This document shows positions 30,596 through 32,583 of a stretch of DNA of 41,393 bases, in pieces. The notes under the pieces are model-generated. The model did no database searches and was not told the origin of the DNA. It saw only the letters and a program-made list of their open reading frames with translations. Source of the stretch: Planctomycetota bacterium (GTDB lineage: Bacteria > Planctomycetota > UBA1135 > UBA2386); NCBI GenBank assembly GCA_016872675.1, contig VGZG01000028.1, positions 1 through 41,393 on the forward strand, in the 5' to 3' direction. Each line of letters begins with the position of its first letter. Position 1 is the stretch's first letter. The translations under genes and the position numbers were made by a program.

Positions 30596-31585
30596 TCAGT
30601 CGAGGCCGATGTCGGCGAGCAGCGCGGCCCAGGCGGCGCGTTCGCGCGCCGGCGCCACCATCGGCCGCAGCGCTGCGGCGCGGGCGCGCAGCCCGGCGAA
30701 GAACGCGGCGTCGCCGGCCGCGCGCGCGAGCAATGCGCCGAGCGCCGCCGCGTCGCCGGCCGGGAACAGGCCCGGCCAGTCGTCGCCGAGCAGCGCGGTG
30801 TTGCCGGGCACGGCGGTGGCGAGCGGCGGCACGCCGGCGGCGAGCGCTTCCGACACGACGTTGGCGCCGCCTTCGGCCGCCGACGGCACGACCAGCACGT
30901 CGCTCGCGGCGAGCAGCGCGCGGGCTTGGCGGCGCGGCAGCTCGCCGAGCCAGCGCGCGCGCGGCTCGGCGGCCACCGCGGCGCGCATCGCGGCGGCGAG
31001 GTCGTCGGTCAGCGCGCGGCCGGCGACGACGACTTGGACCAAGGGCGTGTCCGGCACGTGCGCGAGCGCGTGCACGGGCAGCAGCGGGTCCTTCACGAGG
31101 CGCAGGTGCGCGAGCACGCACGCGACGAACGGGCGCGCGACGGCTCCGGACGACGCCGCGTGCGCGCCCACCGTCGTCGCCGACTGCACGATCGCGCGCG
31201 CCTTGGCGCGCAGCGCCGCCGGCAGCGCCGACGCGGCGAGCGGTTGCAGCGCCACGATCGCGTCGGCCGCGGCGAGCGCTGCCGCGCTGTCCGGCGTCGG
31301 CTCGTAGCGCGGATAGACGTCGGTGCCGGCGAGCATCACGACGAACCGCGCGTCCGGCCGGGCCGCCTTCGCCGCGACCGCCGCCGTCGCCGACTTCACC
31401 GCGTGCACGGCGACGACGAGGTCGCACGGCTCGTCGCGCCACGCGGTGCGCACGCGCGTCGTCCAGCCGAGCTGGCGCAGCAGACCGGCGACGCGCAGCG
31501 CGGTGGTGCGATTGCCCGCACGGCTGCCGCGCGGCGCCGGCGTCAGCACGACGGCGATGCGACGGCGCGCTACGTTGTCAGCCAT
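30596..31585 (-). CDS. senB: SenB-type selenosugar synthase (TIGR04348 glycosyltransferase)
   Basis: 329 residues from the ATG at 31585. GT4-like two-domain glycosyltransferase. The N-terminus RRIAVVLTPAPRGSRAGNRT, then EPCDLVVAVHAVKSA, FVVMLAGTDVYP, ADAIVALQPLAASALP and RAKARAIVQSA, matches the TIGR04348/SenB pattern. The C-terminal nucleotide-sugar site is SDVLVVPSAAEGGANVVSEAL. SenB joins selenophosphate to a UDP-sugar to make a selenosugar, which SenA-type enzymes use for selenoneine. Neither senA nor senC (selD-like) lies in the window, so the pathway end product is open. Its start codon overlaps the divergent lipoprotein start in the palindrome CATG. A selenoprotein gene lies 354 bases away on the same strand. 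Confidence 0.8.
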   Translation of the reverse strand: MADNVARRRIAVVLTPAPRGSRAGNRTTALRVAGLLRQLGWTTRVRTAWRDEPCDLVVAVHAVKSATAAVAAKAARPDARFVVMLAGTDVYPRYEPTPDSAAALAAADAIVALQPLAASALPAALRAKARAIVQSATTVGAHAASSGAVARPFVACVLAHLRLVKDPLLPVHALAHVPDTPLVQVVVAGRALTDDLAAAMRAAVAAEPRARWLGELPRRQARALLAASDVLVVPSAAEGGANVVSEALAAGVPPLATAVPGNTALLGDDWPGLFPAGDAAALGALLARAAGDAAFFAGLRARAAALRPMVAPARERAAWAALLADIGLD

Positions 31586-31913
31586 GTCGCCCCGCCTCCT
31601 CGCCGTCGCCGCTGGCGTGGCAACCATGTTCGCTGCCTGCGCCGCCGCGCCGCCGCCGCCCGCGCCGTTCGACCCGGCGACGGCGCAGAGCGTGCGGCCG
31701 GGCATCAACGCCGACTTCACCAACCCGCGGCTCGACATCGACGCGATGGCCGAGCGCATCGAGGGCACGAGCCGCCAGTGGATCGTCGACCACGTGCGCT
31801 ACGGCCGCGAGACGGCGATCCAAGAAGTCACCGCCGCCGACTTCGCTCTCGTCGTGGTCGTGCCAGTCGGATGGACGGAGAACTACTTCCTCCGCTTCAA
31901 GGAGCGCGGCTGA
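31584..31913 (+). CDS. lipoprotein: internally deleted SAM-methyltransferase-like protein
   Basis: 109 residues from the ATG at 31584; an in-frame ATG at 31557 is also possible. Lipobox FAAC. The mature part has two blocks recalling secreted planctomycete SAM methyltransferases: RPGINADFTNPRLDIDAMAE, which in full-length members precedes the Rossmann core, and SRQWIVDHVRYGRETAIQEV through ENYFLRFKERG, which forms their C-terminus. The whole SAM-binding core (about 130-150 residues with the GxGxG motif) is absent, and the blocks meet at RIEGTSR. Both blocks naturally contain an R-x-x-x-x-SR motif there, so an in-frame recombination deletion is a good explanation. The product cannot be an active methyltransferase. 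It may be a relic or a repurposed binding protein. Confidence 0.6.
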   Translation: MSPRLLAVAAGVATMFAACAAAPPPPAPFDPATAQSVRPGINADFTNPRLDIDAMAERIEGTSRQWIVDHVRYGRETAIQEVTAADFALVVVVPVGWTENYFLRFKERG

Positions 31914-31918
31914 GCCCG

Positions 31919-31938
31919 CGTGCGCGCCGCGCCGCACG
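31919..31938. terminator. possible hairpin between the convergent lipoprotein and selenoprotein genes
   Basis: CGTGCG (31919-31924) pairs with CGCACG (31933-31938) across an 8-base loop, filling the gap between the two convergent stop codons. There is no T-run on either side. Confidence 0.3.
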
Positions 31939-32169
31939 TCAGCCCTGGCCGAACTGGCGAAGGATCTCGTCGTGGTGCGGGAAGCGGTCGCCGTCGCGCC
32001 GCTTCTTGTCCCACAGCAGGGCGCCGTCGGCCCTCACCACGAAGTCGCCGCGGCCGCCGGGCTTCGTCTCCACTTGCGCGCCCGGATGGGCCTTCTTGAT
32101 CGCGGCGGCCAGACTGGTCGCCTTCGGCAGGTAGCTTCAAGCCACGCAGTATTCGATCGTGACGCGCAT
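31939..32169 (-). CDS. SelT/SelW/SelH (Rdx) family selenoprotein, Sec encoded by in-frame UGA
   Basis: 76 residues if the UGA at 32139..32137 is read as selenocysteine. The ATG is at 32169 and the final stop is a second TGA at 31941..31939. The start MRVTIEYCVAU puts Cys8 and Sec11 in the CxxU redox motif of the Rdx family. SYLPKATSLAAAIKKAHPGA, then KPGGRGDFVVRADGALLWDK and DGDRFPHHDEILRQFG, follow the family from end to end, with no other break. These small thioredoxin-like proteins act as cytoplasmic redox proteins. A SECIS-like hairpin begins 14 nt after the UGA. The alternative, a nonsense mutation, would have had to hit exactly this codon. TACACT lies 6 bases before the ATG. SenB, 354 bases away, shows that selenium is used here. 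Confidence 0.85.
32104..32122 (-). promoter_or_regulatory. bacterial SECIS-like hairpin of the selenoprotein mRNA
   Basis: On the minus strand, 14 nt after the UGA, the sequence GGCGACCAGUCUGGCCGCC folds as GGCG/CGCC, one A-C mismatch, CCA/UGG, and an apical GUC loop. E. coli fdhF has GCA-GGUC-UGC in the same position, with its loop about 18 nt after the UGA. A G-U in the apical loop at this distance is what SelB needs. Folding was done by hand. Confidence 0.6.
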
Positions 32170-32208: not shown

Positions 32209-32583
32209 TCACGCCGCCGATTCATCGCGCCGGCCGAGCGCCAGCAGGACCCAGCCGACGACCAGCAGCACGCCGCCGATCGGCGTGATCGCGCCGAGCC
32301 ACTTCGCGCCGGTCAGGACGAGCGCGTAGAGCGTGCCGGAGAACGCTAGCACGCCGGCCAGCAACGCTCGCGCGGCGCCGGCGGTGCGCCAGCCGCGCTC
32401 GGCGAGCAGGCCGCACAGCACGAGTGCGAGCGCGTGGTAGGTCTGGTAGCGCACGGCGACCTCGAAAGTCTGCAACGCGCGGTCATCGAGGCGGCCCTGC
32501 AGCGCGTGCGCGCCGAAGGCGCCGGCGACGACGGCGAGCGCGCCGAGCGCGGCCCCGAGGCGGATTGATGTCGTGGATCGCAT
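32209..32583 (-). CDS. DUF423 family membrane protein
   Basis: 124 residues, the usual length. Four transmembrane helices. The family pattern is clear: LGALAVVAGAFGAHALQGRL, RALQTFEVAVRYQTYHALAL, and FSGTLYALVLTGAKWLGAITPIGG in two blocks. Function unknown. Its stop lies 39 bases before the selenoprotein start on the same strand, but the selenoprotein seems to have its own promoter, so cotranscription is uncertain. Confidence 0.9.
   Translation of the reverse strand: MRSTTSIRLGAALGALAVVAGAFGAHALQGRLDDRALQTFEVAVRYQTYHALALVLCGLLAERGWRTAGAARALLAGVLAFSGTLYALVLTGAKWLGAITPIGGVLLVVGWVLLALGRRDESAA

Follow-up and report, generated by a model that had tools for sequence, protein, structure and literature searches.

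How is a stop codon read when it interrupts an otherwise open frame? The window analyzed here (the whole stretch of 41,393 nucleotides, which is contig C28 of a 3.58-Mb assembly, 95% complete and in 182 contigs) raises this question on its minus strand, where a short frame is crossed by a TGA close to its start. A sequence-only reading of the locus had described a 77-codon frame whose sole internal stop is this TGA, at codon 11, and which continues in the register of Rdx proteins to its true end, the UGA being decoded as selenocysteine (Sec). The first two points held, since coordinates and translation agree and the product matches both Pfam Rdx and TIGR02174 above their cut-offs; the third is the subject of most of what follows.

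A SelW-like frame on the minus strand

The gene and its internal codon are located as follows.

31939..32169, minus strand: SelW-like (Rdx family) selenoprotein gene, 76 aa plus stop, defined by translation with TGA as U, Pfam, TIGR02174 and dN/dS
32137..32139, minus strand: in-frame UGA, codon 11, predicted selenocysteine codon of CxxU, defined by codon counts in relatives

The frame runs from an ATG at 32169 to a terminal TGA at 31941-31939 and, when the internal TGA is translated as U, encodes MRVTIEYCVAUSYLPKATSLAAAIKKAHPGAQVETKPGGRGDFVVRADGALLWDKKRRDGDRFPHHDEILRQFGQG. With the UGA read as Cys, residues 2-72 of this product match Pfam Rdx (PF10262) with 65 bits, for a cut-off of 22.6 bits, and the NCBIfam model TIGR02174 (CXXU_selWTH) is matched with 55.9 bits, for a cut-off of 34.2. 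Because the Rdx match extends across the TGA to the end of the protein, the frame is not a chance one. The top-scoring NCBIfam model is NF041051 (SelTWH_Campy), with 79.8 bits over residues 3-72; equivalogs of this model score at least 88 bits, and the product is therefore filed under the broader Rdx/SelW-like family only. Its redox motif, C8-V-A-U11, lies near the N terminus and aligns with that of CxxU and CxxC relatives. The product is also a sequence homologue of Rdx proteins of solved structure, including MIEN1/C17orf37 (PDB 2ljk), which has a Cys where the protein of the window is predicted to have Sec, and, with a weaker match, mammalian selenoprotein W (2npb). We conclude that 31939..32169 is a genuine SelW-like selenoprotein gene, well supported and ordinary in kind, that is, a real coding gene of the sort that standard gene calling would cut or miss at the UGA.

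Bacterial SelW-like selenoproteins with a CxxU motif were described by Zhang, Fomenko and Gladyshev in 2005 (PMC1088965), 2006 (PMC1794560) and 2008 (PMC2398784). With 48 genes they were the most abundant selenoprotein family of the Sargasso Sea set (PMC1088965), as they were, with 427, in the GOS survey (PMC2398784), and they were listed among sequenced bacteria in 2006 (PMC1794560). For planctomycetes, full sets of Sec-insertion genes and selenoproteins have been reported in a study whose main text does not name SelW (PMC4807772). Known since 2005-2006, abundant and covered by NCBI models, the family gains an additional member here, which leaves the understanding of selenocysteine decoding unchanged. 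The gene shares with these selenoproteins a small Rdx-type product, the CxxU motif, an in-frame UGA and a bacterial SECIS just downstream; it differs from them in host lineage and sequence only, being found in a planctomycete-type genome with a DUF423 gene upstream and a SenB-like gene near.

The UGA codon among relatives and the Sec machinery

The codon at the UGA site was counted in 73 homologous frames, among them that of the window and its paralogue, and 41 of the 73 had been found by peptide patterns that left out this very codon. It is TGA in 69 and Cys in the remaining four, so that the random sense codon for which relatives were to be checked occurs in none, and the TGA is common to 68 further homologous frames from several phyla. 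The TGA form is common within the phylum, where it is present in 138 of the 392 genomes sampled. Among these carriers selA was found in 126, versus 120 of the 254 other genomes (Fisher p ~8e-20, a value that overstates independence because the compared genomes are related). Six of the 12 carriers without selA have a tRNA-Sec above cut-off, so the absence of selA from them is plausibly an assembly gap; in the other six, all of them fragmented assemblies at most 90% complete, neither selA nor tRNA-Sec was found at the thresholds used.

The genome to which the window belongs has all the Sec machinery that the sequence-only reading had asked to be sought and that we looked for: selA (447.5 bits), selB (343.5 bits), a tRNA-Sec (72.7 bits; anticodon UCA by ARAGORN) and, directly after selA, selD (344 bits; locus L020, 1270-2190, on contig C131). 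This selD carries an in-frame TGA of its own in the N-terminal stretch YASGSGUAAKLPPG, which we take to be the site where selenoprotein SelDs have Sec, and is itself a predicted selenoprotein (GSGUAAK). The same genome also contains a second, more distant SelW-like gene (locus L002, 1498-1752, on contig C36), which begins MKVTIKHCVSUGFGSRAAG and has its TGA at the CxxU position, in a CVSU motif.

The sequence downstream of the UGA bears the mark of a protein-coding region. Compared with its closest relative (locus L052, 88% identity), the window copy has a dN of 0.052 and a dS of 0.325 3' of the UGA, the values relative to locus L053 being 0.22 and 0.47, and dN is lower than dS in three pairwise comparisons. 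The differences from L052 fall mostly at third codon positions of the minus-strand SelW-like frame. Given that dN is below dS, these alignments are best explained by a stretch after the UGA that is translated and under purifying selection.

A SECIS-type hairpin after the UGA

Eukaryotic SECIS elements are located in the 3' UTR and bacterial ones adjoin the UGA, and in Escherichia coli fdhF the SECIS is a short hairpin that closely follows the UGA and has G-U in its loop. A candidate for such an element is found in the window.

32104..32122, minus strand: bacterial SECIS-type hairpin, loop GU(C), defined by folding and by fixed-register pairing across 68 relatives

The window copy folds as GGCG-A-CCA-GUC-UGG-C-CGCC, which spans nt 18-36 if the U of the UGA is numbered 1. 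This leaves 14 nt between the UGA and the stem; the apical loop is GUC, its G-U lying at 32114-32113, and seven of seven pairs are formed. It resembles the fdhF SECIS in being short, in directly following the UGA and in its G-U loop; it differs in that the SelW-like group has a three-base apical loop GUC (or GGUCU) in a fixed register. The position and the GU loop given in the sequence-only reading are thus right, but the stability of the single sequence does not bear it out, and it is the pairing in relatives that does. The energy of the window hairpin is no better than that of shuffled sequences (z -0.5 to +1.2), which means that the single sequence is no evidence and that the comparative data are what makes the hairpin evidence. 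When the register was left free in a search of 20 homologues, the mean z was -1.35 and a different hairpin was chosen in the window copy. An Rfam scan of 30-34 kb gave no matches.

When the register was fixed and no gaps were allowed, 90.3% of the seven pairs were formed across 68 distinct relatives, versus 67.0% (sd 1.6, maximum 71.4%) in controls in which codons were redrawn among synonyms according to each gene's own third-position composition. A fixed-register SECIS hairpin is thereby demonstrable against synonymous codon choice, and of the folding analyses this was the decisive one. At pair 21-33 the relatives have CG (44), GC (14), TA (4), TG (2) or AT (1), and the CG, GC, TA and AT variants are compensatory. 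Of the 68 relatives, 62 have AGT or GGT as the loop codon, versus 50 of 387 (~13%) GGN/AGY codons elsewhere in the same genes. All seven pairs are also present, in the same register, in the second SelW-like gene of the genome on contig C36. The four Cys forms, on the other hand, keep just two or three of the seven, the GU-loop hairpin going with the TGA form only. These comparisons strongly support the hairpin, which, like its GU loop, is preserved to a greater extent than the encoded protein requires, and both the fixed-register pairing and the loop are as predicted for a bacterial SECIS that binds SelB and retains GU in its loop.

The locus is almost certainly that of a SelW-like Rdx selenoprotein whose UGA would be decoded as Sec, at codon 11, via the SECIS and the Sec machinery. 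This reading, which had been proposed from the window alone, is supported by the machinery present in the genome, by relatives that have only TGA or Cys at the site and by the conservation of the hairpin. SelB, with GTP and Sec-tRNA(Sec), would recognize the GU-loop hairpin 14 nt after the UGA, and the selenocysteine inserted at codon 11 would complete the C8-x-x-U11 motif of a small protein with a thioredoxin-like fold, probably a selenol/thiol oxidoreductase.

Other explanations can be weighed against this evidence. The TGA could be a former Cys codon (TGC or TGT) in a decaying or mis-assembled gene, an idea to which the fragmentation of the assembly lends some color, as do the facts that one-base changes occur and that a neighboring gene seems to miss its middle. 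It is refuted by the recurrence of the same TGA in the homologous frames of several phyla, and the TGA of the second SelW-like copy in the genome, the purifying selection 3' of the UGA and the conserved SECIS-type pairing all argue against it as well; we regard a pseudogene or an error as extremely improbable. A frame that stays open across the UGA would also be seen if the codon were an ordinary sense codon, for Trp or Cys, because of a suppressor tRNA or a change in the genetic code. Yet the genome has a dedicated tRNA-Sec(UCA) together with SelA, SelB and SelD, genes of the window, the SelW-like gene among them, terminate at TGA, and in relatives Cys is the alternative residue and the hairpin accompanies only the TGA form, so a sense reading deserves hardly any credence.

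There is, finally, the matter of strand. Long open frames overlap on both strands, as GC-rich DNA yields in number, and the minus-strand frame could be incidental to plus-strand frames (e.g., 30926-32134) that are the real genes. It is the minus-strand frame, however, that matches protein families above curated cut-offs, and it is in this frame that changes relative to L052 concentrate at third codon positions and dN is much lower than dS; the chance that the plus-strand frames are the real genes is accordingly minute, and the Sec-decoded SelW-like gene is the reading that we retain.

Neighborhood and SenB-like genes

The SelW-like gene is flanked on the same strand by the following two genes.

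32209..32583, minus strand: DUF423 membrane protein gene, directly upstream of the SelW-like gene with a 39-nt gap (Pfam DUF423, 95.5 bits)
30596..31588, minus strand: SenB-like (TIGR04348, selenosugar synthase) glycosyltransferase gene, downstream of the SelW-like gene (TIGR04348, 289.6 bits)

The DUF423-SelW order is found by tblastn in L052 and L053 as well. The score of the SenB-like gene is just under the TIGR04348 cut-off of 300, which the L053 copy passes with 302.2 bits. SenB is present in 65 of the 392 genomes of the phylum sample, and a SenB-like gene lies next to or near SelW in the window, in L053 (about 1734-2705) and in L052 (from about 2511). A tblastn search against the fetched SelW loci, with ~1.5 kb of flanking sequence, found no SenB near SelW beyond these three. 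We therefore rejected a general SelW-SenB linkage, and the adjacency is lineage-specific. A possible association of the SenB-like neighbor is with selenium metabolism. SenA was not found above cut-off in the genome of the window (best 66.5 bits versus 420), and an orphan selenosugar pathway, with a SenB-like gene by SelW, is possible. That SelW and the neighboring SenB-like Se-glycosyltransferase might act together in this lineage, with SelW for instance as a redox partner in the synthesis or use of a selenosugar-derived metabolite other than selenoneine, is a speculative idea that we consider unlikely.

Among SenB-like genes in other genomes of the same order, two (L125 in G355 and L123 in G259) have an in-frame TGA at a shared alignment site, QSAPDU and QSAPAU respectively, located between the two halves of the enzyme and with a hairpin downstream. 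The other SenB sequences inspected all lack Cys at this site; the two genes possibly encode a Sec-containing SenB or possibly share an error. Another SenB-like gene (L124 in G140) has a single in-frame TGA elsewhere (RWARULRSLGH), where relatives have ordinary residues, and this may be a sequencing error.

Two features of the plus strand were also noted. A methyltransferase gene at 31323-31913 keeps its ends and lacks the central SAM-binding part when compared with the L052 copy, which looks like an internal deletion that preserves the frame or a collapse of the assembly. At 31606-31687, ARAGORN called a tRNA-Arg (anticodon GCG), but no tRNA was found there by the Rfam scan, and this call is probably a false positive.
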